A DNA stretch of 32,497 nt, taken from contig CP070702.1 of NCBI GenBank assembly GCA_020349905.1, positions 2,147,956 through 2,180,452 on the forward strand. Direction: 5' to 3'. Shown one piece after another: positions 1,952-25,168 of this stretch; the first letter of the stretch is position 1, and each line of letters starts with the position of its first letter. Under the pieces are notes generated by a model. It did no database searches. It saw nothing but the letters and a program-made list of their open reading frames with translations, and was not told the origin of the DNA. The position numbers were made by a program, and so were the translations under genes. The DNA comes from Candidatus Eiseniibacteriota bacterium (GTDB taxonomy: Bacteria; Eisenbacteria; RBG-16-71-46; JAFGJU01).

Positions 1952-2432
1952 CACACCTCGTCTCGTCCACACTTCGTAGAGGGACCAGGAAAACGCATGG
2001 TCTGCCAGCTCAGGCCCCAGGTCTCTGCGACGACTGGGATGCACTGTTGCTCGATGTGGGAGGCCGGTAGCGCTTATCCTGGCTTGTTCTCTCGGGCAAG
2101 GTAAAGGAGGAGGGATCTTTCCCCTGGATTCAGGTTATAGGAAAACACTCCGGGCGTCAAGACAGAAGCTGGTCTCGCGTGACTGTGCTGTATTTAGATG
2201 TTGATACCGCGAGCTATAAGTGCAATAATTGATTCAAAGGATTCCTCCGAACCGGTTGTCTGCCGACATGAGGTCTCCGGTTTAGAGGGTCTTCAGAGAC
2301 TCATGAAGTGAAGCCCCTGACCCCTCCTCCTGTTTCCTTGTAATAAGCAAAATCTTGGGTACCTGTCTGTGGTAGACTCGCGGCCGAATGGATAGTGATG
2401 TCCCTTGTCCTCGCGGCGCCCTGGAGAACTTG
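1952..2432. other. divergent intergenic region between two giant cytochrome genes
   Basis: About 480 nt without a convincing gene. The NapC-type gene's frame stays open to 2134, but nothing there looks like protein, and the NapC-type anchor begins downstream. It holds the minus-strand promoter candidate at 2134-2160 and an AT-richer patch at 2190-2245. A weak plus-strand promoter-like pair lies in that patch: TTTAGA at 2193 and TATAAG at 2215, 16 bp apart. I found no clear FNR box or sigma-54 (-24/-12) site. Expression control of both cytochromes probably lies here. Confidence 0.5.
2134..2160 (-). promoter_or_regulatory. candidate sigma-70 promoter for the NapC-type cytochrome
   Basis: On the minus strand TTGACG (2155-2160) and TATAAC (2134-2139) are separated by 15 bp. 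Each hexamer matches 5 of 6 consensus bases, but the spacer is short. Use of this promoter would leave an untranslated leader of roughly 175 nt before the ATG at 1951. This is sequence inspection only. Confidence 0.35.
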
Positions 2433-5210
2433 ATGGTTAGACTTGCCTCTGTTCTGGCAATGCTGTTGTTTTTTTCGGTCCCGTACGGCTCACTGGCCTC
2501 AGAAAACGAGCCGTGCCTGCAGTGTCATTCAGATCCGGATCTCGCTACGAAGCGGGGAGCAGCCAGCGTTTCTCTATACGTTGACGCCCGCGTCTTCTCC
2601 AATTCTGTTCACAGAGGTCTGTCATGCGTTCAGTGCCACGCGGACGCAGACCCGGACGATCTCCCACATCCGGAGAGGCTAAACCCTGTATACTGCGGGA
2701 CCTGCCACGACGAGGTTCAGCTCCAGTTTGAGTCCGGCATTCACGGGCAGGCTTTACACAGAAAAGCCATCTACGCTCCCACCTGCAAGGAATGCCACGG
2801 CAAACACGACATTACGCCGTCGACCGACCCCGCTTCTCGTACCTTCAAGATGAATATCCCTTTCCTCTGCGGCAAGTGCCACCGGGAAGGCGCCCCTGTG
2901 GCGAGGGTCTACAACATATCCGAGCACAACATCATTGAGAATTACAGCCAGAGCATTCACGGAGAGGGACTGTTCAAGAAGGGGCTAGCTGTCACTGCAA
3001 CCTGCACCGATTGCCACGGCAGCCACCTGATTCTTCCTCACAGCAATGCCAAGTCGTCCATCTCAAGGCGTAACATATCTGCAACGTGCATGAAGTGTCA
3101 CTCGAGGATTGAAGAGGTCCATCTCAAGGTCATTCGCGGCGAGCTGTGGGAGGCCGAACCTGGCGCAATACCTGCCTGCACGGACTGTCACCTCCCGCAC
3201 AAGGTGCGCAAGGAGTCCATGGCCATTAACGTCTCGGATCGAGCATGCCTGAAGTGCCACGAAACCGATGACGTACACAAAGTAGTCGATGGAAAGAGGG
3301 TCAGCCTAACGGTGGGAAAGGACGACCTGTCCGGCTCTGTTCACAGAAACATCCCCTGTGTAAAGTGCCACGCCGACATCGATCCCAGATTGAAACGTCC
3401 CTGTGAGCCCGCGGACCGCGTCGATTGTTCAAATTGTCACGCCAAGATCGGCGAAGAGTACATCATCAGCGGGCACGGCCAGCACTTTCTGGAGGGACAC
3501 AAGGAAGTCCCCTACTGCACAACGTGTCACGGTGATCACGGGACCCTTTCGCATTTCGACGACACGGCTCCTACTTTTCGTAGTTCGATACCGGCTCTTT
3601 GTGGCGACTGCCATCGTGAGGACGGAAAGGCAGCGCGTGTGGGAGATCTGTCAGAGATAGATGCGTACTTCGACTACTCCACGAGCGTTCACGGCCGAGG
3701 GCTCACGGAGAAGGGGCTCCTGCCCAGCGCCGTGTGCACGGACTGTCACAATTCCCACATGGTAGCCAAGCACACTGACGAGCGGTCTTCGGTTCACAGG
3801 CGGAACATTCCGGCCACCTGTGCGTCGTGTCACCGCGGCATCTACAAGCAATATGTGAAGAGCGTCCATTTCTCCACGGACGAACGCAAGATGGCGGAAT
3901 TGCCCACGTGCACGGAATGCCACTCGTCCCATCTCATCGCCGAAGTGGAACGCGACAAGTTCATGACCGAGGTGACGGACCAGTGCGGCTCGTGTCACAA
4001 GGAGCTGGCCGAGACATACCTGGATACTATGCACGGAAAGGCGTACCACCTGGGCTATCTCAAGGCCGCCAAGTGTTCTGATTGTCACGGTGCGCATTCC
4101 ATCCTGGGGGTGAACGACCCCGGCTCCAGCGTAGGCTTCAGGCACGTCGTCGATACCTGCAAGAAGTGCCACGAGGACGCCAATCGTCGTTTCACGGGTT
4201 ACTTGACACACGCCACGCATCATGACCGCGTGAAATACCCGATTCTCCATACTACGTACTGGGCCATGACGCTGCTTCTCGTGGGAGTGTTCAGCTTTTT
4301 TGGAGTACATACGCTTCTGTGGCTACCTCGTTCCTTCAAACACCTGAGGGAACGAGAGAAGCAGAGGAAGGGCCATCACGAGAGATACTTCATAAAACGA
4401 TTCACGACTTCGCAGCGCGTCACACACATCTTCGTGATCGTGAGCTTCATGTCCCTGGCCTTAACGGGAATGATGCTCAAGTTTTCGTCCATGCCCTGGG
4501 CCGAGTTCATCGCGGACATGCTTGGGGGAGTCGTGGTCGCGGGAGCGATTCATCGGATCGCCGCGGTCACCACGTTTGGCTACTTCATCTATCACATTTT
4601 TGCCCTGGCCAAGGAAAAACGACGGCGAAGACTTACTTGGCGCGAGTTCATCTTTCAAAAGAACTCGCTGCTTCCCAACAAGCAGGACTTCATAGACTTT
4701 GCAGCCACCCTAAGGTGGTTCCTGGGAAGAGGGCCCCGACCCGAATACGGCCGTTGGACGTACTGGGAGAAGTTCGACTACTTTGCAGTTTTCTGGGGTG
4801 TGGCAGTCATCGGCGCCTCCGGTCTCATGCTATGGTTTCCCGAGTTCTTTACGAGGTTCGTGCCGGGCGTGCTGATTAACGTTGCCACCATCGTTCACAG
4901 CGATGAAGCTCTGCTTGCGGTGGGCTTCATCTTCACCATTCACTTCTTCAACACACACCTGCGCCCCGAGGCGTTCCCTATGGACAAGGTCATATTCACG
5001 GGGATAGTACCGCTGGACGAGTACAAGGCCGACAGGCCGCGAGAATACGAAGAGCTGAAGGACAGCGGGGAGCTGCGTAAGCGGGTGGTGATGAAGAGCC
5101 TTCCTCCACGATGGGAAAAGGCCATCTACGCGTTCGGCCTCACTTTTCTGGGAACTGGAATCTTGCTTATCGGACTAATCATATACTCTGTTCTCTTCGG
5201 CTACAAATAG
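2433..5210 (+). CDS. 19-heme cytochrome c fused to b-type membrane domain (CbcL-like)
   Basis: 925 residues from ATG 2433, chosen over ATG 2388 because a GGAG lies 6 nt upstream and a clean signal peptide (MVRLASVLAMLLFFSVPYG) starts there. Residues about 25-590 carry 19 CXXCH motifs in a repeated order: hemes 1-8 match hemes 9-16, and hemes 17-19 match hemes 3-5. Residues about 600-925 hold some six hydrophobic segments with His residues (for example VTHIF, GAIHR, FTIHFF) of the HydC/FdnI diheme b type. In Geobacter, CbcL has this c-plus-b architecture and moves electrons from menaquinol to the periplasm during metal respiration. That role is inferred here by architecture only. The gene is divergent from the NapC-type cytochrome and convergent with ccsA, which ends 63 nt away. 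Direction of electron flow is unknown; a quinone-reducing role is also possible. Confidence 0.9.
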   Translation: MVRLASVLAMLLFFSVPYGSLASENEPCLQCHSDPDLATKRGAASVSLYVDARVFSNSVHRGLSCVQCHADADPDDLPHPERLNPVYCGTCHDEVQLQFESGIHGQALHRKAIYAPTCKECHGKHDITPSTDPASRTFKMNIPFLCGKCHREGAPVARVYNISEHNIIENYSQSIHGEGLFKKGLAVTATCTDCHGSHLILPHSNAKSSISRRNISATCMKCHSRIEEVHLKVIRGELWEAEPGAIPACTDCHLPHKVRKESMAINVSDRACLKCHETDDVHKVVDGKRVSLTVGKDDLSGSVHRNIPCVKCHADIDPRLKRPCEPADRVDCSNCHAKIGEEYIISGHGQHFLEGHKEVPYCTTCHGDHGTLSHFDDTAPTFRSSIPALCGDCHREDGKAARVGDLSEIDAYFDYSTSVHGRGLTEKGLLPSAVCTDCHNSHMVAKHTDERSSVHRRNIPATCASCHRGIYKQYVKSVHFSTDERKMAELPTCTECHSSHLIAEVERDKFMTEVTDQCGSCHKELAETYLDTMHGKAYHLGYLKAAKCSDCHGAHSILGVNDPGSSVGFRHVVDTCKKCHEDANRRFTGYLTHATHHDRVKYPILHTTYWAMTLLLVGVFSFFGVHTLLWLPRSFKHLREREKQRKGHHERYFIKRFTTSQRVTHIFVIVSFMSLALTGMMLKFSSMPWAEFIADMLGGVVVAGAIHRIAAVTTFGYFIYHIFALAKEKRRRRLTWREFIFQKNSLLPNKQDFIDFAATLRWFLGRGPRPEYGRWTYWEKFDYFAVFWGVAVIGASGLMLWFPEFFTRFVPGVLINVATIVHSDEALLAVGFIFTIHFFNTHLRPEAFPMDKVIFTGIVPLDEYKADRPREYEELKDSGELRKRVVMKSLPPRWEKAIYAFGLTFLGTGILLIGLIIYSVLFGYK
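2511..4180 (+). repeat. in-gene octaheme repeats (8 + 8 + 3 hemes)
   Basis: Unit 1 runs from CLQCHSDPD (about 2514) to CTDCHLPH (about 3195). Unit 2 runs from CLKCHETDD (about 3246) to CTECHSSH (about 3921). A partial third unit runs from CGSCHKEL (about 3984) to CKKCHED (about 4175). Matching pairs include SVHRGLSCVQCHADADP with SVHRNIPCVKCHADIDP, and FLCGKCHREGAPVARV with ALCGDCHREDGKAARV. The match is at protein level; the DNA has diverged, so the duplication is old. Confidence 0.8.
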
Positions 5211-5273: not shown

Positions 5274-6074
5274 TTACGCGTACGTGTGAAGCCCTCCAAG
5301 GAAGAGATTGCCGAGGAAGGACAATATGGCCGCAGAGAATCCCAAAATGGATAGTATCGCTGCCCTCTTTCCTCTCCAGCCGGCCGTAATTCGTGCGTGC
5401 AGGTACGCGGAGTAAATAAGCCAAATTACGAGCGAACCAACCTCTTTGGGATCCCAACCCCAAGGTGCACCCCACGCTTTCCAAGCCCAGATGGCCCCAG
5501 CGAACAGCGCCCCCAGAGTGAAAAGCGGATACCCGATCACTATCGCCCTGTAAGTCAGGTCATCCAGCGATTCAAGCGAAGGAAGCCATTTGGCTCCACG
5601 CATCTTGAACAGGTACATCACGCTGCTCGCAAAGGCCACCGCGAATGCGCCTTCGCCGATGACGGCCAGCGTGACGTGTATCTGTAGCCAGTAGCTCTGC
5701 AGGGCGGGCACAAGCTGGCTCTCCATGTCCTTGGGAAATAGAGAAGCGACGACGATAACAGCGAATGCCACAGGTGCAACGAAGACCCCTATGTTCTCGG
5801 CCTTACGTCTTAACTGGAGTACGAGATAACTGAGGACGGTCGCCCAAGCCAGGCAAGAGGCATATTCGTACATTCCCGTGAAAGGAGGGTGTCCTGTGGC
5901 TATGGTACGCACTACTAAAGCAACAGAGTGGAAGCCAAAACCGGTGGCCAGGGTCACCAGCGCAACTCTCTCCAGCCATCTCCTGGATAATGCGACGTTG
6001 GCGGCATAAAGTATTGTGGCTCCTAGATAGGCGAAAAGAGACACCCAAAAGAAAGGTACGTCACTCCCTGGCAC
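5274..6074 (-). CDS. ccsA: cytochrome c biogenesis protein CcsA (System II heme handling)
   Basis: Integral membrane protein of the CcsA/ResC/HemX-like family, which with ResB (Ccs1) moves heme across the membrane and attaches it to apocytochromes c. The tryptophan-rich WWD signature is clear (AWKAWGAPWGWDPKE), followed by SLVIWLIYSAYLHAR. Conserved His residues flank it. The start is taken as GTG 6074 because AAGGAG lies 6 nt upstream and the protein then opens directly with its first membrane segment. A GTG at 6137 would add 21 hydrophilic residues and has no ribosome site. The gene overlaps the end of resB by 14 nt, so the two are translationally coupled. About 267 residues. A second family member lies at 22502-23326. 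Confidence 0.9.
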   Translation of the reverse strand: MPGSDVPFFWVSLFAYLGATILYAANVALSRRWLERVALVTLATGFGFHSVALVVRTIATGHPPFTGMYEYASCLAWATVLSYLVLQLRRKAENIGVFVAPVAFAVIVVASLFPKDMESQLVPALQSYWLQIHVTLAVIGEGAFAVAFASSVMYLFKMRGAKWLPSLESLDDLTYRAIVIGYPLFTLGALFAGAIWAWKAWGAPWGWDPKEVGSLVIWLIYSAYLHARITAGWRGKRAAILSILGFSAAILSFLGNLFLGGLHTYA

Positions 6075-7500
6075 TTCCTTCTCCTTTCCCACGTGTTTCT
6101 GCGGTCGCAGCGAATTTGTAGAGGCCGTCGATTTCACGCTTCAAAGTGAAAGGATCCTTTCTGGAGACGCCTGCCATCCTAAGCTCGGAGCGCCCCTTAC
6201 CTGTCTCCAGAACCTTCACCCAGATCTTCTTGTAGGGCACAAAGAAAGAGAGGAATATGCCGATGCTCGCAATCCCAAAGCCCGTAAACATCAGGGCCAC
6301 CCCGGGATTTGCGGCCACATCAATGCCGGTGTAGAAAGCTGGATAGTAGTCGAAGAAATGAAAACGACCCAACTCACCCGACCCCGAGTGAACGTCCATT
6401 CCCTTCACCAGCCATCCGGCAGCTACCACGGCGCCCCCGCGCGACACCTCCAATCTGATTGCCGGAAGTCTCGGCTCGAGGGAGCGACTTCTGACTTCTC
6501 CGGTCGCAAGGTCCTTGACGAAGTGGGGAACATAATCTGTCACCTCTGCCTCAACCTCTGTATCAGGTATCTGTTTCCGGACTCTGAACGGCAGGTCAAT
6601 AATAGTGCGAGTGCCTTCCTCACCGGCAAAGACGATTCTTGCCTCCTTGACTTTGGTAGGGTCTTCGCCATAACTGGCCTGATAGAAGCTGATGCCGTTG
6701 TAGGTGAGAGGATGGTTCACCTCTATCACCTTCGTAAGAACTTCCCTTTCGCCATCGAGAACCGTCAGGGTCGATTTGTAGTCACGTATCTTGCCGTCCT
6801 CGGTAGTCTCTATCACGAAATCGTCGGCTCTGATGCTGAAGCCCGCGCCGGGCTTTATCTCGTTCAAGTCAAAGGACTCTCCCATGTTCAACGGCCTCTG
6901 GATTCTGTAACCCATTGTCCCGTTGACTATTCCGGCCACAAGCACGAGGATGACGGCAAGGTGAGTCACCAGGAAGCCAATCCGCGAGACGCCTCCCTTC
7001 TGACCCACTGTCAGCTTCGCCTGTCCGACCTCAGAACTGTTAACTGAAAAACCCTTCGCCCTAAGACGTTTACCTATAAGGTCATTGAGATTCGATACCT
7101 CGAGCGGTACCTCTGCAGTGCGTGCGGTGCGAAGCAGCCCGTGGTCCTCAGCGAGAGGTCTGGAAAATGCCTGACTGAAGCTAAACTTCACTCGCTTCAA
7201 TGAACAGAGGACGAGATTGACACACGTGAGGCATATCAACAGCAGATACCACCACACGCGATAAACCGAGCCCAATCCTGAAGACAAGATGAAACGTCCC
7301 CAGAATTCGCCGTAGCGAGACAAATACTGTTCCTGAGGAGCATTCTGGAGAACGAACATCCCCAGGAGAGAAACACATCCTACAGTCAGCAGCAGGAAGA
7401 GTCCAAACTTTGCGGAACTAAGAAACGAGTAGACGGACATCCAGATCGATCCCTGCTTTTCGTTTGAGGGAGTTCCCTCCTGGGGTAAGTTCATTTCCAT
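6061..7500 (-). CDS. resB: ResB/Ccs1 cytochrome c biogenesis protein
   Basis: 479 residues, normal for the ResB family. Membrane segments lie near the N-terminus (FGLFLLLTVGCVSLLGMFVL, then WWYLLLICLTCVNLVLCS), then a third at about residues 170-190. A large extracytoplasmic domain follows, with NHPLTYNGISFYQASYG typical of ResB, and a last membrane segment near residue 415 (ALMFTGFGIASIGIFLSFF). ResB holds or chaperones apocytochrome and works with CcsA, encoded immediately downstream with overlapping ends. The gene sits 9 nt downstream of a tetraheme cytochrome, so the operon supplies both a substrate and the ligation machinery. An AGGAAG about 5 nt before the ATG supports the start. Confidence 0.93.
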   Translation of the reverse strand: MEMNLPQEGTPSNEKQGSIWMSVYSFLSSAKFGLFLLLTVGCVSLLGMFVLQNAPQEQYLSRYGEFWGRFILSSGLGSVYRVWWYLLLICLTCVNLVLCSLKRVKFSFSQAFSRPLAEDHGLLRTARTAEVPLEVSNLNDLIGKRLRAKGFSVNSSEVGQAKLTVGQKGGVSRIGFLVTHLAVILVLVAGIVNGTMGYRIQRPLNMGESFDLNEIKPGAGFSIRADDFVIETTEDGKIRDYKSTLTVLDGEREVLTKVIEVNHPLTYNGISFYQASYGEDPTKVKEARIVFAGEEGTRTIIDLPFRVRKQIPDTEVEAEVTDYVPHFVKDLATGEVRSRSLEPRLPAIRLEVSRGGAVVAAGWLVKGMDVHSGSGELGRFHFFDYYPAFYTGIDVAANPGVALMFTGFGIASIGIFLSFFVPYKKIWVKVLETGKGRSELRMAGVSRKDPFTLKREIDGLYKFAATAETRGKGEGSARE

Positions 7501-7509
7501 CAGATCTTC

Positions 7510-8106
7510 CTACTTCTCAGTCTTCTTCTCTACCTTGTGCACGCCCTTAGCCACGTACTCCTTGAAGTCAAACCCCTTAAACGTGGGGCTCTTCTTGTTG
7601 TGGCATCCGATGCACACGGCCTCATCCACGGGGCTCACGAGACCGGCCTTGACTGACTGTTCATGGTCCTTCATGACCGACATTTTCATGTAGTCAGCAC
7701 CCGCGCCGTGGCATGCCTCACACTGCACGCCTTTGAGATCGGGTTTGTCCTTGCCTGTCTCGTAGCCGCCGTCGCCAAAACCGGTCGTGTGACACTTCAA
7801 GCACTCGGCGTTCTTGTCCTCCTTCTTCTCGACATTCAAAAGGTCAAAGGCTTTGGCATGCTGGCTGCCTTCCCATGCCTTGAAGTACGGCATGTGACAC
7901 ATCTTACATTTACCGACTCCGACATAGGCATGCTTAACGGCTTCGGTCGTGTCCTTCGACGCCTTTGTAGACTCGGCGCATGTCTCTTTCGCCTTCTCCT
8001 TGGTTGTCTCTTCCGCTGTCCCGTCAAAGTACAGCAGCACCGAAAGGCAAAGCGCAACTGCGCAGAGAGCCACCACGATCGGTGTCTTGCCTAACAGAGT
8101 TCTCAT
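7510..8106 (-). CDS. tetraheme c554-type cytochrome
   Basis: 198 residues with an N-terminal signal or anchor segment (VVALCAVALCLSVLLYF), a Lys/Glu/Thr-rich linker (about residues 30-58), then four CXXCH motifs: CKMCH, CLKCH, CEACH and CIGCH. The spacing and the phrases VGVGKCKMCHMPYFKAWEGS and GVQCEACHGAGADYM fit the cytochrome c554 family, periplasmic electron carriers usually of four hemes. The signal segment lacks an obvious cleavage site, so the protein may stay membrane-tethered. First gene of the resB-ccsA operon, with a good promoter at 8246-8274. The redox partner is not shown by the sequence; the nearby giant cytochromes are candidates. Confidence 0.88.
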   Translation of the reverse strand: MRTLLGKTPIVVALCAVALCLSVLLYFDGTAEETTKEKAKETCAESTKASKDTTEAVKHAYVGVGKCKMCHMPYFKAWEGSQHAKAFDLLNVEKKEDKNAECLKCHTTGFGDGGYETGKDKPDLKGVQCEACHGAGADYMKMSVMKDHEQSVKAGLVSPVDEAVCIGCHNKKSPTFKGFDFKEYVAKGVHKVEKKTEK

Positions 8107-8350: not shown

Positions 8351-8731
8351 CTAATCCGATGTGGATGTAGCCTCTTCAATAACACTCGCCAGTAGCTTAC
8401 CGTCAACCGGCTTGCTCAGGAAGCGAAAGACGCCGCAACTCCTTGCACGAGCCCTAGTCTCTGGGGAACCGTAGGCGCTTATGACAAGGACCTTGGCTGT
8501 GGGAATCCTCCTCTTGGCCGCGGATGCAACCTCCAACCCATCCATGCCTTCAAGTTTCAGGTCTGTTATCACAACATCGAACTGCTCTGACTCCAACAAC
8601 CGAACGGCCTCTTCACCGGAGGCTACAATGACCACTCGATAACCTCGCTTCGTGAGCTCCTGTGAAATAGACCATCGCAGAAGCTTCTCGTCCTCGACAA
8701 CTAGTATGCGTGGCTTACGTTCGAGTTTCAT
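8351..8731 (-). CDS. stand-alone response-regulator receiver protein
   Basis: 126 residues consisting only of a CheY-like receiver domain. Phospho-acceptor site D57 (VVITDLK), acidic residues E13/D14, S85 (VLVISAYG) and K107 (FLSKPVDG) are all in place, so it should accept phosphate. No output domain follows. Its opening (ILVVEDEKLLRWSIS) closely resembles that of the NtrC-type regulator 400 nt upstream (VLVVDDEKLLRWSVA), suggesting duplication of that regulator's receiver. It may compete for phosphate from the heme-motif kinase or act as an intermediate or sink. No clear ribosome site precedes the ATG. Confidence 0.85.
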   Translation of the reverse strand: MKLERKPRILVVEDEKLLRWSISQELTKRGYRVVIVASGEEAVRLLESEQFDVVITDLKLEGMDGLEVASAAKRRIPTAKVLVISAYGSPETRARARSCGVFRFLSKPVDGKLLASVIEEATSTSD

Positions 8732-9147
8732 TGGTATCGGTCCACGACTGCTTCTTTAGGCGGGACGTGCGAAGTTCGCGCGGAAAGGGACCGGAACTCG
8801 GTCTTGCCAACAGACAGCAGCAATTTTCGTGACAGAAATGAAGGTTTGGCCTGGGGAAATTGACTTGATCTCACCGAGGTATACGTCAATTAACCTTTTT
8901 AATTACAAGGCCCTACGACAACGGGCAGTCAGGTCTGACGGTCCGGGATTATCTCCCCGTCGATCAGCCACGTTCGTCTGCTAGTGAGGGGGATTTCACC
9001 CACCCAGAGTGGGTTAAGCACATACGTGAACGCGAAAGAGAGGTGGAGACGAGAGGGAATCGGCGGAGTTCAGGAGGCACGCCGGGGTACACGAAGACCG
9101 GGTCTGTTCCAATCGGGGCAGCCGTGGCATTCTACTGTGGACCGTCC
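8732..9147. other. 416-nt gap between receiver gene and NtrC-type regulator
   Basis: No supported gene; short open frames here lack family features. It holds an inverted repeat AATTGAC/GTCAATT (8858-8864 and 8885-8891, 20-nt spacer) next to an AT-rich run at 8889-8907. Near 8999-9017 there is a small hairpin (ACCCAC/GTGGGT) without a T-tract. Minus-strand promoter-like elements near the AT-rich run are poorly spaced. The receiver gene probably has its own control here, or the gap is decayed coding sequence. Confidence 0.4.
8858..8891. repeat. inverted repeat AATTGAC-N20-GTCAATT
   Basis: Perfect 7-bp arms at 8858-8864 and 8885-8891. The region lies about 130-160 nt upstream of the receiver gene and is bordered by an AT-rich run. 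It could be an operator or a weak stem-loop. No function is demonstrated. Confidence 0.35.
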
Positions 9148-10569
9148 CTACCAGAGGACTTTCTTCTCGATCCGATATTTCTTCATGCGGTAGCGGAGAG
9201 TATCTCTAGAGATGCCCAGGAGTTTCGCCGCACGCACCTGGTTTCCCGCCGATCTCTTCAAAGCGTCAATGATGAGCTGTCGTTCCACATCCGGCAGGGA
9301 AGGGCCTGAGTCGTTAGGAGGCTCGCGGCCGGAAGCCTGTGCTGCCGCTGTCATGCCACTGCGCGCTAGCTGCGTGGGCCGGAGAGCGTCACCCGGAACC
9401 CGGATTTCCATTGGGAGGTGGTGGAAATCTATGCGGTCCTCCTTTTCAAGAAGAACGATTCTCTCGAGAAGATTTCTGAGCTCTCTGACGTTGCCGGGCC
9501 AATCGTACGCAACAAGAGCGTCCATTGCTGCCGGGCTTACGTCGATAGGGGGACGATGATTCTCTTCGCAAAACTGTCTCACGAAGTTCATCGTAAGATG
9601 AGATATGTCTTCTTTCCTCGCTGAGAGGGGCGGCAGCTCGATGGGGACAACCTTGAGTCTATAGTACAGATCTTCCCTCAACTGTGCTTCTCTTACCGCC
9701 TGTTCCACTTCTCTGTTGGTCGCAGCGATTATTCTCACATCCACTTCTATGTCCCTTCTACCCCCCAACCTCTTGAACGTCTTATCCTCGATCAGTCTCA
9801 GCAACTTCGTCTGAAAGCTCGGATTCATCTCCGCAATCTCATCAAGGTACACAGTGCCTCCGTCAGCCAATTCAAACAGACCTTCCCTCGAGGTCCTTGC
9901 GTCGGTGAACGTACCCTTTTCATAGCCAAACAGCTCACTCTCTAGAAGCGACTCCGGAAGAGCAGAACAGTTTATCGTCACAAACGGAGCAGCGCTTCTC
10001 TCACTGCCGGAATGAATGGCCTGAGCGAAGAAATCCTTGCCCGTGCCTGTCTGGCCTGCCAGAAACACCGTGAGAGACCGGCTGGCGGCTACCTTCTTCG
10101 CCTGGCTGACCACGCGCTTCATGACCTGCGACTCAGCCACTACATCGTCAAACGTGACCTGTTTTCTGTCCCGCCTCCTCCAGGTCACTTCTCGCTCCAA
10201 CTTCCTGTGTTCCAGGGCACGCTTTACTATGACCTCTATCGCCTCCGGTTCGAGTGGCTTGATGAGATAATCAAATGCTCCCAGCTTCATCGACTCAACG
10301 GCTTCTCTGACTTCGGAGAAGGCGGTCATCATTATGACGACGCTCTGATGTGCTTCGTCGCGCAAGATGCGAAGGATCTCTATGCCCGACTTCCCTGGAA
10401 GCCGGACATCCATTAGAATCACGTCGACCCTGGACCTTCGCACGAGTTCAAGGGCGCTCTCTCCGTCCGCGGCCTCTTGTACTTCGAACCCCTCTTTCCT
10501 GAGAGGTTCAGCAACCGACCAGCGGAGCAGCTTCTCGTCATCAACAACTAGAACCTTGGGAGACGCCAT
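9148..10569 (-). CDS. NtrC-family sigma-54 dependent response regulator
   Basis: 473 residues from ATG 10569, chosen over 10590 because GGGGAGG lies 5 nt upstream. Order of domains: receiver (phospho-Asp D54, Lys K104), AAA+ ATPase of the sigma-54 activator class (Walker A GQTGTGKD, Walker B GGTVYLDEI, arginine-finger region REDLYYRLKV, WPGNVRELRN), then a C-terminal Fis-type helix-turn-helix (GNQVRAAKLLGISRDTLRYR). The sigma-54 contact loop reads GTFTDA instead of GAFTGA. It should activate transcription from -24/-12 promoters when phosphorylated. It overlaps the 3' end of the kinase gene by 29 nt, making the two a cognate pair. Targets are not evident; cytochrome or heme genes are the contextual guess. 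Confidence 0.93.
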   Translation of the reverse strand: MASPKVLVVDDEKLLRWSVAEPLRKEGFEVQEAADGESALELVRRSRVDVILMDVRLPGKSGIEILRILRDEAHQSVVIMMTAFSEVREAVESMKLGAFDYLIKPLEPEAIEVIVKRALEHRKLEREVTWRRRDRKQVTFDDVVAESQVMKRVVSQAKKVAASRSLTVFLAGQTGTGKDFFAQAIHSGSERSAAPFVTINCSALPESLLESELFGYEKGTFTDARTSREGLFELADGGTVYLDEIAEMNPSFQTKLLRLIEDKTFKRLGGRRDIEVDVRIIAATNREVEQAVREAQLREDLYYRLKVVPIELPPLSARKEDISHLTMNFVRQFCEENHRPPIDVSPAAMDALVAYDWPGNVRELRNLLERIVLLEKEDRIDFHHLPMEIRVPGDALRPTQLARSGMTAAAQASGREPPNDSGPSLPDVERQLIIDALKRSAGNQVRAAKLLGISRDTLRYRMKKYRIEKKVLW

Positions 10570-12058
10570 TTCTTCCTCCCCGGTTTTCATCTCCTACGGG
10601 GATGAAAACCGAAAAGCTACTTCCTTGACCCGGTGTGCTCTTTACATCTATAATGCCGCCGTGCTCTTTAACAATCCTCTGCGCTATGGAGAGTCCGAGC
10701 CCCGTGCCCTTGTGCTTCGTCGTAAAGAACGGATCGAAGATCTGGCCCAGTATCTCCTTATCCACTCCGTGCCCCGTATCCGTCAGGTCGACCCTCACGA
10801 ACGGCTTTCTGTGGGGAGGCCGAGCCTCCAAGTGCGTCGCAATCTCGAGAGTTCCTCCATCCGGCATAGCCTGGATCGCATTTAGCATCAGATTCAGAAA
10901 CACCTGCTGAATCTGTTTTTCGTCGACCATTGCGCTCGGAATGTGCGCCGAGAATCGACTTACCACGCCGATGTTCTGCCCCTTCATCTGCGGCATCAGG
11001 AGCGACAGCGTGCTGGAAACGATATCATTGATACCGGACAGTTTCAGTTCCGGCCTTGGGGGTCTGGCGAAGTCCAGCAGGTCCCTGACTGTATTCCCAA
11101 GTCGCTCGACCTGCACCAACATTTCGTCGAAGATCTCTCTCTTCGGGTCGTCTTCACGAATCTCGTCTGCAATGATGTGGATGGCGCCGGAAATGCCCGC
11201 CAGGGGATTCTTGATCTCGTGTGCCAGACCTGCTGCCAGTTGTCCCAGCGAAGCCAATCTCTCGGCCTTCTCCATTTGCTCGGCGTGGTAACGCCTGAGG
11301 TCGGCCTGCGCCGTTTCTAACTCACTGACCATGACGTTGAACGCAGTGGTGAACTCAGCGATCTCATCCTGCCCAGTAACCTCTGCTCTGGCAGAGAGAT
11401 CTCCTGCTTCAACTCTCTTCATTGTCTGGACGAGTGGAGCTACTCGCTTATCTATCATAGTCCTTACCACAATCCAGGTGCCAAGACCAATGCATAACAT
11501 CACAATTGCATTGGCAACAATTGTGGTGGATGTACCGATTGCGTTTTCCCTCTCGCTCTCGCCTGCCAGCAGCTCGGTGTTGATGAATCCCAACACGGCC
11601 TTGGTGCCGTGGCAGTCCCAGCAACGCTTCCTATTCGCGACTGGTTTCACATAGCTAAACACCCGTTCCTGGCCGGTCTTCGTGACAGACAGTCGCTGCT
11701 TCTTGAGTGCCCTGTCAAGTATTGCAGGGGGCGCTGCCATACCTTCTTCTTCCGGCAGAGACGATTTGAGAACGACGCCCTTCTCGTCGAATATTCTCAC
11801 CGACAGGACTTCCGGCTTGGCCTGTGCTCTCAGGAGCACCTCTGAGACGCGGCCGGCCGGACCCAACTCCATCTCTCTCACAAGCATGGCTTCAATAGAC
11901 TCTTCGAGCATGCTGACGTTTCGTTCCGCCGCGCGGCGGAAGGCCAGCCGTTCTCTTTCTATGGTGAGCAGACTCGACAAAACCACTCCCAGGCCCACGA
12001 TGAGTATCACGCCGGTGACCAGTCGTACTCTCAGGCTCTTGAACAGACTAAGTTCCAT
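10541..12058 (-). CDS. sensor histidine kinase with periplasmic heme c motif (CWDCH)
   Basis: 505 residues. Membrane segment 1 (about 11-31), an extracytoplasmic sensor region (about 32-175), segment 2 (about 176-199), HAMP (about 198-250), HisKA with phospho-acceptor H280 (LAHEIKNPLAG), and a HATPase domain (N-box around N393, DTGHGVD, TGLGLS). The sensor region contains C146-W-D-C149-H150-G, a CXXCH covalent heme c site located just before the second membrane segment, as in Tll0287-like/DUF3365-type and Geobacter heme-PAS sensors. It probably senses redox state, a gaseous ligand or cytochrome maturation in the periplasm and phosphorylates the overlapping NtrC-type regulator. Start 12058 lies 27 nt after hemL, suggesting co-transcription with heme genes. 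Heme binding is predicted, not shown. Confidence 0.92.
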   Translation of the reverse strand: MELSLFKSLRVRLVTGVILIVGLGVVLSSLLTIERERLAFRRAAERNVSMLEESIEAMLVREMELGPAGRVSEVLLRAQAKPEVLSVRIFDEKGVVLKSSLPEEEGMAAPPAILDRALKKQRLSVTKTGQERVFSYVKPVANRKRCWDCHGTKAVLGFINTELLAGESERENAIGTSTTIVANAIVMLCIGLGTWIVVRTMIDKRVAPLVQTMKRVEAGDLSARAEVTGQDEIAEFTTAFNVMVSELETAQADLRRYHAEQMEKAERLASLGQLAAGLAHEIKNPLAGISGAIHIIADEIREDDPKREIFDEMLVQVERLGNTVRDLLDFARPPRPELKLSGINDIVSSTLSLLMPQMKGQNIGVVSRFSAHIPSAMVDEKQIQQVFLNLMLNAIQAMPDGGTLEIATHLEARPPHRKPFVRVDLTDTGHGVDKEILGQIFDPFFTTKHKGTGLGLSIAQRIVKEHGGIIDVKSTPGQGSSFSVFIPVGDENRGGRNGVSQGSSC

Positions 12059-12085: not shown

Positions 12086-13384
12086 TCAGCTGCCTGGTCC
12101 GCTAACGAAGCGGAATGCACTGCCCGCAGCGTCTACAGTCGCTGAAATGTCCCGCTTCGTGTGAGCAAGCGACAGAAAACACGTCTCGAACTGGGAGGGG
12201 GGAAACAATACACTACGCTCCTTGAGCTTCGAGAAAAAGCGAGCGTAAGCAGCAGTGTCCGATTCCTTCGCCTCTTCGTAGCAGCGGACCTCGCCACTTC
12301 GGAAGAACACGGTGAACATCGAGCCCACGGTGTTGATGACCACGTCAACTCCAGCCTCGCGCGCCCGTTCCCGTATTCCGCGCACGAGCTCCGCCGTCTT
12401 CTTCTCCAGCTCAGCGTAACGGCTCTTGCGCTTAAGGAGGCGCAACGTGGCGACCCCGGCAGCCATGGCCACCGGGTTTCCAGAGAGTGTTCCCGCCTGA
12501 TAGACCGGCCCCTGGGGAGCGAGTTCCTTCATGAGCCTAGCCTTCCCTCCGTAGGCTCCCACGGGAAACCCTCCGCCTACTATCTTGCCGAGGCACGTTA
12601 TGTCGGGCGCAATGCCCAGCATGTTCTGTGCACCCCCGAAGCAAAGTCTGAACCCGGTGATGACTTCGTCGAATATGAGCAGAGCGCCGTAGCGGTTGCA
12701 CGCCTGCCTGAGTGCGCGCAGGAACTTGAGAGTCCCGGGTACGACTCCCATGTTGCCGGCTACGGGTTCGACTATAACGGCCGCGACTTTCCGGCCGACG
12801 GTTAACATCGCTCTCTCGAACGTGGAGACGTCGTTATAGGGAAGGGTCAGCGTTGACCGGGCCAGGGAGGAAGGCACTCCCGCACACTGCGGTATTCCGA
12901 ACGTGGCCAGGCCGGACCCGGCCGCAGAGAGAAAACTGTCTGCGTGTCCGTGGTAGCATCCGCTGAACTTCACCAGCACCTCTCTACCGGTCGCTGCACG
13001 CGCCAACCTCAGAGCGCTCATCGTTGCCTCCGTTCCGGAGCTGACAAACCTCACCATCTCGACGGACGGAAAGGCGTCAGTGACGAGCTGCGCCATCTCC
13101 ACTTCTATCGCGGTGGAAAGGCCGAAACTGCTTCCCTCTGCAAGCGCCTTTCTGACGGAGGCCATCACCTGAGGATGGCCGTGGCCTGCTATCAGGGGCC
13201 CCCAGGAACACAGGTAGTCCACGTAGCTGTTCCCGTCCACGTCGTAGACTTTTGCCCCCCTTGCTCTGCTCGCGAAGATAGGCTCTCCGCCCACAGCGCT
13301 GAAGGCCCTGACCGGGCTGTTGACCCCGCCCGGAATGAGACCGCGTGCTTTACGGAACAATCTCTTTGAACGAGCTGTCCCCAC
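12086..13384 (-). CDS. hemL: glutamate-1-semialdehyde 2,1-aminomutase
   Basis: 432 residues, full length for HemL, a PLP enzyme converting glutamate-1-semialdehyde to 5-aminolevulinate in the C5 pathway. Visible marks are PGGVNSPVRAF near the N-terminus, SSGTEATMSALRLAR, FDEVITGFR, and the PLP lysine in CLGKIVGGGFPVGAYGG. The start is GTG 13384 with AGGAG about 10 nt upstream. It is the last heme gene of the cluster and is separated from ahbB by about 245 nt holding a tandem repeat array, so it may have separate control. The kinase gene follows 27 nt downstream. Confidence 0.95.
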   Translation of the reverse strand: MGTARSKRLFRKARGLIPGGVNSPVRAFSAVGGEPIFASRARGAKVYDVDGNSYVDYLCSWGPLIAGHGHPQVMASVRKALAEGSSFGLSTAIEVEMAQLVTDAFPSVEMVRFVSSGTEATMSALRLARAATGREVLVKFSGCYHGHADSFLSAAGSGLATFGIPQCAGVPSSLARSTLTLPYNDVSTFERAMLTVGRKVAAVIVEPVAGNMGVVPGTLKFLRALRQACNRYGALLIFDEVITGFRLCFGGAQNMLGIAPDITCLGKIVGGGFPVGAYGGKARLMKELAPQGPVYQAGTLSGNPVAMAAGVATLRLLKRKSRYAELEKKTAELVRGIRERAREAGVDVVINTVGSMFTVFFRSGEVRCYEEAKESDTAAYARFFSKLKERSVLFPPSQFETCFLSLAHTKRDISATVDAAGSAFRFVSGPGS

Positions 13385-13431
13385 CTGGAATGCTCTCCTC
13401 TCGTCTGTGCTGGCGTCACAACTGTGTTGTT

Positions 13432-13533
13432 ACCGACTCAACTGTATTGACCGCTCAAGTGTATCACTCGCTCGACCGTATCGCCGGCTCATCTGTATTA
13501 CCCACTCAAGTGTATCTTCCGCTCGACTGTACC
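13432..13533. repeat. tandem array of a 17-bp degenerate repeat upstream of hemL
   Basis: Six units in exact 17-bp register: 13432-13448, 13449-13465, 13466-13482, 13483-13499, 13500-13516 and 13517-13533. Plus-strand units read like ACCGACTCAACTGTATT, GACCGCTCAAGTGTATC, ACTCGCTCGACCGTATC and ACCCACTCAAGTGTATC. The shared core is CTCAASTGTAT (minus: ATACASTTGAG). Weaker extra copies occur near 13412-13428, 13398-13411 and 13570-13584. The period is not a multiple of 3 and the array lies between the ahbB stop and the hemL start, so it is not coding repeat sequence. It might be a multi-site operator, a weak promoter series (ATACACT resembles a -10 element) or a minisatellite. Confidence 0.75.
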
Positions 13534-13630: not shown

Positions 13631-14092
13631 TCAGTCTATCTCCCAGCTCGTCTTCTTGAATTCCTTCTCGGTGAACAGGAGCTTGTATTCCTCAAGACCC
13701 GTCGCGGCCGACATTTTCCTAACTGACTCCTCGCAACGCTCCATGTCATCTGCGTGAATCATAGTGAAAAGGTTGTACTCCCACCCCTCGAAGGTCTCTC
13801 TCTCGTAGCAGTGGCTCACTTCGCTGAAGCCTGCCATGATCCTGCCCGCTTCCTCCAGCTTCTCGGGGTGACATTTCCAGACAGCCATGACGTTGACCTT
13901 CTTGCCGACCCTCTTGTGAGCCAGAATGGCCCCGAACCGCCTTATCTTTCCCTCCTCGAGCCAATGCCTTATGGTCGACAGCACGTCGTCTTCCGAGACT
14001 CCCAGTCTGAGGGCGATGTCCTGAAGCGGCCTTCTCACGACCGGGACGTCTCGCTGCAGAAACCGTACGAGTTCCTTCATGTCCTCTCTCAT
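13631..14092 (-). CDS. ahbB: siroheme decarboxylase, AhbB-type subunit
   Basis: 153 residues. Lrp/AsnC-like fold: an N-terminal helix-turn-helix-like part (LQDIALRLGVSEDDVLSTIR) followed by RRFGAILAHKRVG and GFSEVSHCYERETFEGWEY, the signature segment of the siroheme decarboxylase subunits that bind substrate near the conserved His. With AhbA it converts siroheme to 12,18-didecarboxysiroheme in the alternative heme pathway. It follows ahbA by 33 nt. Lrp-type regulators have the same fold, but the paired paralogs inside a heme operon with ahbC and ahbD make the enzyme assignment secure. Confidence 0.92.
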   Translation of the reverse strand: MREDMKELVRFLQRDVPVVRRPLQDIALRLGVSEDDVLSTIRHWLEEGKIRRFGAILAHKRVGKKVNVMAVWKCHPEKLEEAGRIMAGFSEVSHCYERETFEGWEYNLFTMIHADDMERCEESVRKMSAATGLEEYKLLFTEKEFKKTSWEID

Positions 14093-14125: not shown

Positions 14126-14572
14126 TCAAATGTCGAAGACCGTTCTCACCTTGAACGTTCTCTTCGCCCTCAGAAGGTGAAGAGAACATCCGGCGAATTC
14201 CTCTATTGCCCGCACTATCTCCTGGATTCTCTCCTGCGACGAGGCGGTTATTGTAAACCACAGGTTGTATCTACTCTTCCGCGAGTAGTTGTGCGTCACT
14301 TCTTTGAAGCTGCTGACGTAGGAAGCCACTTCTTCCAGACGCTCCGGCGCAACACACATTGTGGCCAGCACGCTCTTGTAACCGAGTGCGGCCTGGTCGA
14401 AGACGGCGCCGATTCTCCGGATTACTCTTTTTGCCTTGAGTTCCTGCACGCGCTTCAGAACGTCTCCTTCTTCCACTGAGAGCCGCTCGGCCACCTTCGC
14501 AAACGGCTCAAGCACCAGGGGAAAGTCGTTCTGCAGAATCAAGAGGAGCTCCCGTTCGTGTGCGTTGTCCAT
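14126..14572 (-). CDS. ahbA: siroheme decarboxylase, AhbA-type subunit
   Basis: About 149 residues from ATG 14572. The Lrp-like fold includes RRIGAVFDQAALGYKS and FKEVTHNYSRKSRYNLWF, with the conserved His-Asn-Tyr-Ser-Arg segment of AhbA. It partners AhbB in decarboxylating the two acetate side chains at C12 and C18 of siroheme. The start is uncertain: a GTG at 14611 extends the frame by 13 residues, but the AGGAGG there is only 1 nt away. ATG 14572 gives the usual N-terminus (MDNAHERELLLILQ) but has a weak ribosome site. Confidence 0.9.
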   Translation of the reverse strand: MDNAHERELLLILQNDFPLVLEPFAKVAERLSVEEGDVLKRVQELKAKRVIRRIGAVFDQAALGYKSVLATMCVAPERLEEVASYVSSFKEVTHNYSRKSRYNLWFTITASSQERIQEIVRAIEEFAGCSLHLLRAKRTFKVRTVFDI

Positions 14573-14629
14573 GTTTGCTTTCACTGATTGCGCGCTGCTA
14601 CCTTTCTCCACGCCTCCTGAAAGTCGTAC

Positions 14630-15754
14630 TCACTTCCTGGCGCTTCCCGGCCTGCGAGCGCTGGTACGCCTCTCTGCTGCCTCGGAAGGAGTATAGTCAC
14701 AGAAGGGTTCTTCTGCCAGATACTCGCCGGTCATCGCAAAGGACCTGGCCCTGCAACCTCCGCAGACTTTTCTGAATTCGCAGTATCCACACGTCCCGTG
14801 ATATCGCTCGAAATCGCGCAGTGAGAGGAAGAACGGCGATTCCCTCCATATCTTATCAAAGCTGTCATTCTTCACGTTCCCGGCGCTTATGTCCAAAAAC
14901 CCGCACATCTGCACGTCACCGACGTGCGATATGAAGCAGAACGAAGAGCCACCCATGCAGCCTCGCGTAAGGGAATGAAGCTGCTCCGACTTCTTCTCTG
15001 GAGTCCCCTTCTGTCCCAAGATTCTGTGGTAGTGGGGAGCACAGGTCGGCTTAAAGTCTAGGGGGGTCCTGCCGCTTTCCTCGTAGACCCAGGTCAGGAC
15101 TGTTTCGTACTGTGCGGGGCTGAGTTCCTCTTCTGCGAGCTCCTTTCCCCTCCCTGTGGGCACCAGAAGAAACGGATGAAACGCACAGGCTCCAAGCTCC
15201 ACAGCAAGCTCCAGTATGTCTTTCAGCTCACCCAGGTTTCGCCTTGTCACCGTCGTGTTTATCTGAAACTCCATGCCCGCGCGTTTGAGAAACTCGATTC
15301 CCCGCAGCGCGCCGTCGAAGGCACCGCTCTCTCCCCTGAAACTGTCGTGACTCGCGCTGCTGGCACCGTCCAAGCTGATGCTCACTCTCCTGACGCCAGC
15401 CTCCACCATGCGGCGTGCGCTCTCCTCGTCAATGACCGTCCCGCACGAGGCCAGGACGGTCCGCATACCGAGTTCGTTCGCGCGCCGGGCGATATCGTAC
15501 ACGTCGTCTCTCAGAAGGGCCTCTCCGCCCGTCAGAATCAGAATGGGCGTGGATACCAGTGCAATCTCGTCCAGGACCCTCATGCACTCCTCCGTGGTCA
15601 GCTCCCCCTCGTAAGGTTCCCGTTGTGCGGACGCCCTGCAATGAGAGCACGACAGGACGCACGAGCGCGTTATCTCCCATGCGATGAGTCTGGGCACGAA
15701 CCTCTCGGCCTGCCCTGCCGTCGCTTTCTGGCTACGCTGCTTCTCGTTTTGCAT
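14630..15754 (-). CDS. ahbD: AhbD-like radical SAM heme synthase
   Basis: 374 residues. The radical SAM cluster motif is C32-X3-C36-X2-C39 (SCVLSCSHCR), followed by ILTGGEALL and VSISLDGASS. The C-terminal SPASM-like cysteines (CMGGSSFCF, MCGFLDISAGNVKN, TCGYCEFRKVCGGCRAR) bind an auxiliary iron-sulfur cluster. AhbD oxidatively decarboxylates the two propionates of iron-coproporphyrin III to vinyls, giving protoheme. The sequence motifs and the position between hemB and ahbA support AhbD over other SPASM proteins. The tail (ERRTSARRPGSARK) is basic. The upstream gap to hemB is 85 nt. Confidence 0.9.
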   Translation of the reverse strand: MQNEKQRSQKATAGQAERFVPRLIAWEITRSCVLSCSHCRASAQREPYEGELTTEECMRVLDEIALVSTPILILTGGEALLRDDVYDIARRANELGMRTVLASCGTVIDEESARRMVEAGVRRVSISLDGASSASHDSFRGESGAFDGALRGIEFLKRAGMEFQINTTVTRRNLGELKDILELAVELGACAFHPFLLVPTGRGKELAEEELSPAQYETVLTWVYEESGRTPLDFKPTCAPHYHRILGQKGTPEKKSEQLHSLTRGCMGGSSFCFISHVGDVQMCGFLDISAGNVKNDSFDKIWRESPFFLSLRDFERYHGTCGYCEFRKVCGGCRARSFAMTGEYLAEEPFCDYTPSEAAERRTSARRPGSARK

Positions 15755-15839: not shown

Positions 15840-16826
15840 TCAAAACCCATCTCCCCGACCCAGAACCCTCGCCGCCTCTTTAGCGTGATAGCTTATGATG
15901 AAATCGGCGCCGGCCCTCTTGATTGAGGTCAGTATCTCCAGGACGATCCTCTCTCTATCAAGGCAGCCTGACCTCACCGCGCCCTCCACCATTGCGTACT
16001 CTCCGCTCACGTTGAATGCGGCCAGAGGATGTCCGAAGCGCTGCTTCACTCGGTGTATGACGTCAAGATAGGCGAGGGCCGGTTTCACCATTATTATGTC
16101 GGCCCCTTCATCTATGTCCAGAGAAGCCTCTCTGAGAGCTTCCTCGACGTTGGCCACGTCCATCTGGTATGAGCTCCTGTCGCCAAAAGAGGGGGCGCAC
16201 TCTGCTGCGTCTCTGAACGGTCCGTAGAATGCGCTGGCGTACTTCACCGCGTACGAGATAATGACCGCGTTCTGGAACCCCTCTCTGTCGAGTGCCTGCC
16301 TGATGGTCTTCACGCGACCGTCCATCATGTCCGAAGGGGCCAGCGCGTCGGCCCCTGAGCGCGCGTGGGACACCGCGATCTTTGCAAGCAACTCGATTGT
16401 TGCGTCGTTTTCGACTTCCTCCTTGCGAACTACCCCGCAGTGGCCATGGTCCGTGTACTCACAGAGACACACGTCGGTAATCACGAGGACTTCCGGAAGA
16501 GACTTCTTCAGTTGCTCGACGGCCCTCTGTACGATGCCTCCGGCCGCGTAGGCGCCGGATGCCGTCGAGTCCTTCTGCTCGGGGATTCCGAAGAGAATCA
16601 CGCCGCCCAACCCCAGGTCGTTTCCCTCCTTCACCTCGTCAACGAGCTTGTCGATCGAGAAGCGAAAGCAGCCGGGCATAGAAGGAATCTCTTCCTTCAA
16701 TCCCCTCCCCGGAATCACGAAAGCTGGAAGGACGAGATCCCCTGCGTTAAGCTCGGTCTCTCTGACGAGCCTCCGCAGCGGCGCGGACTGCCTCAACCTT
16801 CTAAGTCGTGTAGAAGGAAACTCCAT
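15840..16826 (-). CDS. hemB: 5-aminolevulinate dehydratase (porphobilinogen synthase)
   Basis: About 328 residues from ATG 16826, chosen because AGGAGG lies 5 nt upstream. An in-frame start at 16880 would add 18 residues overlapping ahbC. It condenses two 5-aminolevulinates to porphobilinogen. The zinc-type cysteine cluster is present (DVCLCEYTDHGHCGV), as are the two active-site lysines (SYAVKYASAFYGPFR and IMVKPALAYLD) and the SDMMDGRV segment. All essential residues are present, so it should be active and zinc-dependent. Confidence 0.96.
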   Translation of the reverse strand: MEFPSTRLRRLRQSAPLRRLVRETELNAGDLVLPAFVIPGRGLKEEIPSMPGCFRFSIDKLVDEVKEGNDLGLGGVILFGIPEQKDSTASGAYAAGGIVQRAVEQLKKSLPEVLVITDVCLCEYTDHGHCGVVRKEEVENDATIELLAKIAVSHARSGADALAPSDMMDGRVKTIRQALDREGFQNAVIISYAVKYASAFYGPFRDAAECAPSFGDRSSYQMDVANVEEALREASLDIDEGADIIMVKPALAYLDVIHRVKQRFGHPLAAFNVSGEYAMVEGAVRSGCLDRERIVLEILTSIKRAGADFIISYHAKEAARVLGRGDGF

Positions 16827-16857
16827 TACTTCCTCCTGTCCGATGCCCGAACACGGG

Positions 16858-18048
16858 TCAAGCGCTTCCGATTTCTTCATCGGTGAGGTAGCAGGCCGGG
16901 TCGGGCGCCCAGATGTCGCCGTAAACGGCCTCGGCCCTTACTCTGAAGTTGCCGTTACATATGTCCAGAAACTTGCAGCTGCCGCAGCGTCCTGTCAGGA
17001 GATGTTTCCTGTCTTTGAGGCCCGCCATCAGCGGATCACCTATGTCTGTCCAGATTTCTCCGAAGCGACGCTCCCGCACGTTTCCGAATGAATGGTGACG
17101 CCAGAATTGATCCGGATGCACCTCGCCGGTGGGACCGACGCAGGCGATGGCGATTCCGGAATTGTTGCCTCCGTTCCACCTGAGAAGCTCGAGAACCTTC
17201 TCCGCGCGCTCGGGGTTCTCTTCTCTCATCTTCAGATAGAGAAAGACACCGTCCGTATGATTGTCCACTGTAAGAAGCTCACACGAAACGCCGTCGCGGC
17301 AGAATTCCTTGGTCTTCTCGTAGATAAGCTCCGCCGCGGCCCTGGATTCGTCCAGCGAGACGTCCTCTCCAACCATGCTGGAGCCTCGACCCGCGTAGAC
17401 AAGATGATAGAAGCAGCAGCGCGGTATCTGCTCCGTCTTCAGAAGTTCAAAGATGCGTTCGAGATCGTGGTAGTTGTGCCTGTTTATCGTGAACCGCAGA
17501 CCCACCTTGACACCGGCTTCCCGGCAGTTGCGGATAGCGGTGAGCGCGTCCCGGAACGCGCCCTTTTTGCCCCTGAAGCAGTCGTTAGTCTCTTCCATCC
17601 CATCGAGGCTTACGCCCACGTATGAGAACCCGCTCGCCTTGATTCTCTTTGCGGTTTCCTCGGTTATGAGCACTCCGTTGGTGGAGATTACCGTTCTGAG
17701 CCCCTTTGACACGGCGTAGTCCCCCAGCTCATAGAGGTCCTTCCTGAGCAAAGGTTCACCTCCGGAGAAAAGCAGAACAGGAACGCCGAACTCGGCCAGG
17801 TCGTCTATCATTCGCCTGGCCTCTTCCGTAGACAGCTCGTCGACTCCCCGCCCTGGGCTGGCCTCTATGTAGCAGTGAATGCAGCTCAGGTTACATTGCC
17901 TCGTGGAGTTCCACACGACAATGGGCTTCTTGTCCGTGGAGAACTGCAGAAGGTGCGAAGGGAGTTTCGAACTGTCCCTTCCGTATCTGAGTTCGTCGCC
18001 GATCTCTTCTGTCCCGCATATGAGCTTGGTAAACCCGATCATCTTCAT
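16858..18048 (-). CDS. ahbC: AhbC-like radical SAM, 12,18-didecarboxysiroheme deacetylase
   Basis: 396 residues. Radical SAM motif C52-X3-C56-X2-C59 within VVWNSTRQCNLSCIHCYIE, then LLFSGGEPLLRKD. The C-terminal half carries NGGNNSG, HPDQFWRHHSFGNV and the cysteine set CGSCKFLDICNGN with a later CYLTDEEIG, all hallmarks of AhbC/NirJ-like proteins. AhbC removes two acetate chains to give iron-coproporphyrin III, the substrate of AhbD. NirJ (heme d1) is the near alternative, but the absence of other nir genes and presence of ahbA, ahbB and ahbD favour AhbC. Confidence 0.9.
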   Translation of the reverse strand: MKMIGFTKLICGTEEIGDELRYGRDSSKLPSHLLQFSTDKKPIVVWNSTRQCNLSCIHCYIEASPGRGVDELSTEEARRMIDDLAEFGVPVLLFSGGEPLLRKDLYELGDYAVSKGLRTVISTNGVLITEETAKRIKASGFSYVGVSLDGMEETNDCFRGKKGAFRDALTAIRNCREAGVKVGLRFTINRHNYHDLERIFELLKTEQIPRCCFYHLVYAGRGSSMVGEDVSLDESRAAAELIYEKTKEFCRDGVSCELLTVDNHTDGVFLYLKMREENPERAEKVLELLRWNGGNNSGIAIACVGPTGEVHPDQFWRHHSFGNVRERRFGEIWTDIGDPLMAGLKDRKHLLTGRCGSCKFLDICNGNFRVRAEAVYGDIWAPDPACYLTDEEIGSA

Positions 18049-24987: not shown

Positions 24988-25168
24988 CTTTCGACCGATT
25001 CACCCTTTTGACGAAGCTCATTGCCGTGCTTCGCCCGGAACTCGACGTGTGTCGAGCTAGTGATCGATGCCAAAGTCCGAGCTTCGTACCTCCCAATGAG
25101 CACGATACGTGCCACGGGCAGAATGACGAAATTTCAACAAGTTAACGCGTTAGAGGTGCGCTGGATAA

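Follow-up and report, generated by a model that had tools for sequence, protein, structure and literature searches.

How bacteria rich in multiheme cytochromes match the synthesis and attachment of heme to demand is largely unknown. The window analyzed here, by which we mean the whole stretch of 32,497 nucleotides from a Candidatus Eiseniibacteriota bacterium, raises this question through a sensor histidine kinase gene that sits between genes for heme biosynthesis and genes for a cytochrome and for cytochrome c maturation. What does this kinase sense, and which of these genes does it control?

Organization of the locus

The heme genes of the window form a one-strand run on the minus strand. 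The run begins with a flavoprotein gene (23463–24839) and continues with a ccsB/hemX-like gene (22502–23326), met8 (21862–22500), hemA (20585–21871), hemC (19592–20521), a cobA-hemD fusion (18081–19598), ahbC (16858–18048), hemB (15840–16880), ahbD (14630–15754), the siroheme decarboxylase pair ahbA (14126–14611) and ahbB (13631–14092), hemL (12086–13384; TIGR00713, E 2e-178), the kinase gene (10541–12058), and a gene for an NtrC-type sigma-54 response regulator (9148–10569). The hem genes of this run correspond to the siroheme-dependent route to heme. The ccsB/hemX-like gene, which adjoins met8-hemA, encodes a second ccsB-type protein; no resB lies alongside it, and its position resembles that of hemX. 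In the 246-nt gap between ahbB and hemL, upstream of hemL-kinase-regulator, a 17-nt sequence is tandemly repeated about 6.5 times in degenerate form (13419–13531). No structured RNA or tRNA was found when these were sought within the window.

The preliminary description had placed the kinase 27 nt downstream of hemL and overlapping a sigma-54 activator gene, and both statements hold: hemL lies on the same strand at that distance, and the start of the regulator gene falls within the 3' end of the kinase gene. The longest open reading frame for the regulator begins at 10590; a strong GGAGG precedes the residues MASPK, with a start at 10569, and this is probably the true start, inside the end of the kinase gene. 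The cytochrome and resB-ccsA genes said to follow the kinase are also present on this strand, as a tetraheme cytochrome c gene of the Cytochrome_C554 type (7510–8106), resB (6061–7500, system II cytochrome c maturation), and ccsA/ccsB (5274–6137, system II heme handling), but a gene for a lone single-domain receiver (8351–8731, minus strand) sits between the regulator and the cytochrome. On the plus strand, positions 2388–5210 encode a 940-aa protein in which 19 CXXCH motifs precede a membrane domain like that of cytochrome b561 or the formate dehydrogenase gamma subunit.

The regulator contains a receiver, an AAA+ sigma-54 interaction domain, and a Fis-type helix-turn-helix, and rpoN is present in the genome. 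Its version of the GAFTGA motif reads GTFTDA, a variation on the GAFTDA found in most relatives, which leaves some doubt as to whether this regulator still contacts sigma-54. The lone receiver is 31% identical to the receiver domain of the regulator, and an equivalent gene follows the regulator at six related loci (L142, L143, L146, L041, L042, and L061).

The kinase carries a predicted heme c sensor domain

The kinase gene encodes 505 residues from an ATG start, with a first transmembrane segment at about residues 9–32, a periplasmic domain of the sCache_heme type of about 140 residues, a second transmembrane segment at about 177–200, a HAMP domain (206–248), a HisKA domain with H280, and a HATPase domain. 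A perfect 18-bp palindrome within the gene (TTCCGCCGCGCGGCGGAA, 11924–11941) is probably incidental. The heme c motif CWDCHG is found at residues 146–151 of this minus-strand frame, as originally reported (CXXCH at 146–150; nucleotides 11606–11623, minus strand). It does not lie immediately before the second membrane segment, as had been stated; the last beta strand falls within the roughly 25 residues that separate the two.

The CXXCH motif is not a chance occurrence, as it arose in only 0.02% of shuffled versions of the kinase (probability 0.0002) and is invariant across 29 homologous sensor domains. C146, C149, and H150 are invariant in all three alignments (A3, A4, and A5). Position 63 is a Met in 28 of the 29 domains. 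In the window this residue (codon at 11870–11872, minus strand) aligns with Met60 of GSU0935, an axial ligand of the heme.

Comparison of the single sequence with solved structures gave the Geobacter sensors GSU0935 and GSU0582 as the best homologues (0.002), the window sensor being about 22% identical to their solved domains. A profile built from the 29 relatives (A5) matched the same proteins with much greater strength (PDB 3B47, GSU0582, E 6e-13; PDB 3B42, GSU0935, E 9e-12). The search against sensor profiles suggested in the preliminary description gave a divided result: taken alone, the window sensor scored below the Pfam cut-offs, with 22.0 against 27 bits for PF21563 (Mcp40H-20_sensor) and 17.5 against 24.1 for PF11845, but 22 of the 29 relatives matched PF21563 at E <= 0.01. 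An AlphaFold2 model of the sensor, computed without heme (pLDDT 87), has a Cache fold in which CXXCH occupies a short helix preceding the last strand, the same placement as described for the sCache_heme family, in which the motif is 99% conserved (PMC12889525). Foldseek matched the model to Cache domains of WalK and to 3B42 and 3B47, the best match by E-value being WalK, whose Cache domain is heme-free. The rmsd to 3B42 and 3B47 was high, probably because the solved heme domains are domain-swapped (PMC8396549).

By sequence, then, the sensor belongs to the known sCache_heme/Mcp40H family that includes GSU0582 and GSU0935. The earlier proposal of a heme c sensor kinase is well supported as a prediction by homology to solved heme c sensors, by the invariant CXXCH, and by the conserved Met at the axial-ligand position. 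The heme of GSU0935 is ligated by His144 and Met60, undergoes a redox-linked ligand switch, and binds NO and CO; release of Met60 on oxidation is the proposed signal (PMC8396549). Characterized members of the family are redox or NO sensors in the holo form (PMC8396549, PMC12889525).

The pair recurs beside multiheme cytochrome genes

Relatives of the kinase were collected from one scan of a genome collection, from which the named relatives are drawn, and from a profile search of 385 genomes. In the Geobacteraceae, Anaeromyxobacter, Nitrospirota, Aminicenantes, and other lineages the kinase gene is nearly always followed by a gene for an NtrC-type regulator; the kinase-NtrC pair is conserved across phyla. 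At 15 of 24 loci containing the pair we found open reading frames with at least four CXXCH motifs; of 20 comparison segments placed arbitrarily, mostly in these same genomes, 2 had such frames. The 24 loci were picked by similarity of the kinase and not by their neighbors, and are not all independent because near relatives (several Geobacteraceae and Anaeromyxobacter) are included. Most relatives have the pair beside cytochrome genes and away from hem or ccs genes. Genes for resB-ccsA are found in the fetched flanks of three loci (L044, L066, and L138). In one Nitrospirota relative (L066:9752–10933) the kinase has neither the sensor domain nor CXXCH; it lies directly behind resB-ccsB, and genes for an NtrC-type protein and a receiver come after it.

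The gap downstream of the regulator was also examined for sigma-54 promoters. Sixteen relatives could be tested, having a co-directional next gene and a gap of at least 100 nt, and 11 of these contain a sense-strand box with no more than one mismatch. Shuffled sequences gave 0.13; no such box stood on the antisense strand, and 4 of 66 other gaps between co-directional genes at these loci had one. At four loci (L142, L143, L146, and L042) the regulator gene is followed, as in the window, by a gene for a lone receiver and then by cytochrome genes.

Linkage of the pair to heme genes

Linkage of the kinase to hem genes occurs in three lineages. The preliminary description proposed to check whether kinase-hemL linkage is conserved in related genomes; at the 20 hemL loci examined in the window's class it is not, as all of them lack the kinase. 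Two members of the window's family (G001 and G002) gave no match to hemL at E <= 1e-60, and the heme operon may therefore have been lost in these or gained in the window genome. Outside the class, one locus (L049) has the order met8-ccsB-hemA-hemC-cobA/hemD-kinase-NtrC, and ten Anaeromyxobacteraceae genomes have the order hemA-kinase-NtrC.

Each of the ten Anaeromyxobacteraceae genomes has a sigma-54 box a short distance before the linked hemA (shuffle mean 0.03). In eight of them a single script put the box 46–61 nt from the hemA start, and inspection by eye gave a similar distance in the other two (L185 and L188). The ten upstream regions amount to about seven distinct sequences, and the sequence around the boxes has diverged to about 20–40% ungapped identity between most of the ten genomes. 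Farther upstream is found a palindrome, GCGCAA-N3/4-TTGCGC, in exact or degenerate form; hemA upstream of the heme-c kinase with conserved box and palindrome is recorded at L064, L067, L137, L177–L183, L185, and L188. Two of the genomes (G394 and G397) were searched for their hemA content, and in both the linked copy is a second hemA with a lower score. In two sister genera of the same family (L187 and L189), and in a member of another family (L192), the pair lies beside a gene for 17–21 hemes that has its own box. Of all the evidence, the hemA linkage and boxes in the Anaeromyxobacteraceae argue most strongly that the system can drive not only cytochromes but also heme synthesis.

In a phylogenetic tree, the window kinase groups weakly (86/72) with those of L044 and L138, both of which lie near resB-ccsA and multiheme genes. 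The hem-linked kinases do not group together in the tree, which argues only tentatively against a single origin for the hem linkage, as its backbone is weak.

Candidate promoters within the window

A sigma-54-like box, TGTCACGAAAATTGC (8820–8834, minus strand), precedes the receiver gene by about 90 nt. It has one mismatch, in the -24 GG (TGTCAC), and the shuffle probability of an equally good match in that gap is 0.0065. A candidate box for the heme run, TGGCACGTATCGTGC (25100–25114, minus strand), is 261 nt upstream of the flavoprotein gene, and about 70 nt upstream of this box is a perfect 18-bp palindrome, ATGCCCCAATTGGGGCAT (25177–25194). The palindrome is only a candidate activator site, because a genome-wide search turned up no further exact copy, but just one that differs by a single mismatch, and because the region is shared with a divergent chloride-channel gene. 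A loose 16-mer search for this palindrome was uninformative, the Anaeromyxobacter operator GCGCAA-N3/4-TTGCGC occurs in the window at chance level, and a search for an operator motif common to the relatives found none beyond A-runs. Genome-wide, sigma-54 boxes are in slight excess (68, versus 52 for a reversed-pattern control). The promoters of the window are weaker than those of the relatives.

A model for signaling by the kinase

We propose that the kinase holds a covalent heme c in its periplasmic Cache domain, with His150 as the proximal and Met63 as the probable second ligand. By analogy with GSU0582 and GSU0935, a change in heme redox state, or NO, would displace the Met and alter kinase activity. 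The kinase would then phosphorylate the NtrC-type regulator encoded by the overlapping gene, and perhaps also the lone receiver, which might serve as a sink or feedback element; the regulator would in turn activate sigma-54 promoters and raise the capacity for c-type cytochromes. The receiver-tetraheme cytochrome-resB-ccsA operon is the probable target in the window, and the hem operon around the pair a possible one. In the relatives, the repeated gene order and the predicted sigma-54 promoters speak for a functional connection of the pair with heme and cytochrome genes. The most likely role of the kinase is to sense redox state (or NO) in the periplasm and to turn on cytochromes and heme supply; the system probably acts as a switch by which the output of heme and cytochromes is adjusted to redox conditions. 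Taken as a whole, we consider this account, in which a heme c Cache kinase and an NtrC regulator raise c-type cytochrome capacity through sigma-54 promoters, somewhat likelier to be right than wrong.

A narrower reading would have the pair sense redox or NO but control the receiver-cytochrome-resB-ccsA operon alone, its place behind hemL being a by-product of gene clustering. This is unlikely, though it deserves serious attention: the pair accompanies cytochrome rather than hem genes in most relatives, hemL loci of the window's class lack the kinase, and the hem-operon box in the window is distant and weak. It does not readily account for the recurrence of hem linkage at L049 and in the Anaeromyxobacteraceae, where a box immediately precedes hemA in all ten genomes. 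A further concern is whether CXXCH binds heme at all, since the best fold match by E-value, WalK, raises the prospect of an ordinary Cache domain for a small ligand. We regard this as extremely improbable given the invariance of the motif in such divergent domains, its near-universal conservation in the wider family (PMC12889525), and the heme c borne at CXXCH by the solved homologues 3B42 and 3B47.

The preliminary description had offered heme supply, maturation capacity, or redox state as the quantity reported. Redox state (or NO) is the favored signal; supply or capacity is not supported over it, because the characterized homologues are redox/NO sensors and most relatives lie away from hem and ccs genes. 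A kinase reporting heme supply or maturation capacity would raise hem and ccs genes through its apo-sensor when heme is lacking or Ccs is saturated. Such a sensor should itself need Ccs to deliver heme for its maturation, which fits the resB-ccsA genes downstream in the window and in the flanks of L044, L066, and L138, the hem linkage in three lineages, and the heme-linked two-component system in the hem cluster of Leptospira (PMC2266917). Against it stand the holo-form signaling of characterized family members (PMC8396549, PMC12889525), the location of most relatives, the conservation of an axial Met for which apo-sensing would have no need, and the L066 kinase, which lies directly downstream of resB-ccsB although it lacks the sensor. 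We do not favor sensing of heme supply and judge it quite improbable. More elaborately, the kinase might monitor its own heme c, down to whether any heme was loaded, and so exert feedback on heme synthesis through the Ahb operon and on heme attachment through resB-ccsA, gauging the capacity for cytochrome c assembly by its own maturation. This possibility is speculative and more doubtful still.

Comparison with known systems

The closest parallel for the sensor is the sCache_heme, or DUF3365-Tll0287/Mcp40H, family of GSU0582 and GSU0935, which likewise has a periplasmic Cache-type domain between two transmembrane helices followed by HAMP, a short CXXCH-bearing helix ahead of the last strand, and the aligned axial Met (PMC12889525, PMC8396549). 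GSU0582 and GSU0935 are chemoreceptors, whereas the window protein is a kinase with an NtrC-type partner in a hem operon. DcrA of Desulfovibrio vulgaris also has heme c in a periplasmic sensor and a proposed role in oxygen or redox sensing, but is a chemotaxis receptor rather than a kinase-regulator pair (cited in PMC3460858). Heme c kinases are themselves known, as G. sulfurreducens has eight two-component proteins with CX2-4CH (PMC8396549). NmpRSTU of Myxococcus xanthus resembles the window system in joining a heme-containing sensor kinase to an NtrC-like regulator of hemN and cytochrome oxidase genes; it differs in using a soluble cytoplasmic globin oxygen sensor and a four-part phosphorelay (PMC11841059).

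The preliminary description saw the new aspect in the coupling to a full heme operon. This needs qualification, as the Hklep/Rrlep two-component genes of Leptospira also lie within a hem cluster, flanked in L. interrogans by hemE and hemL, and their mutants require heme or ALA and have lowered hemAEL expression (PMC2266917). What does differ is the sensor and its partner: Hklep has a dispensable periplasmic loop of 32 residues and Rrlep, of about 227 aa, is not of the NtrC type (PMC2266917), and neither the short loop nor the small two-domain regulator is seen in the window, with its full sensor domain and NtrC-type partner. A search of the open-access literature found no earlier account of this kinase-NtrC pair as a regulator of hem or cytochrome genes, or of its tie to hem or multiheme genes through sigma-54 promoters. 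With heme c kinases and hem-cluster two-component systems already known, the new element is a pair conserved across phyla, beside multiheme cytochrome genes or hemA, with sigma-54 boxes attached. That the sensor family consists of heme-binding Cache domains was recognized only of late, and few of its targets are known. The promoter pattern described here supplies a testable regulon for a kinase-NtrC family found by multiheme cytochrome genes in many lineages and by a hemA in Anaeromyxobacter, which is cultured and non-pathogenic.
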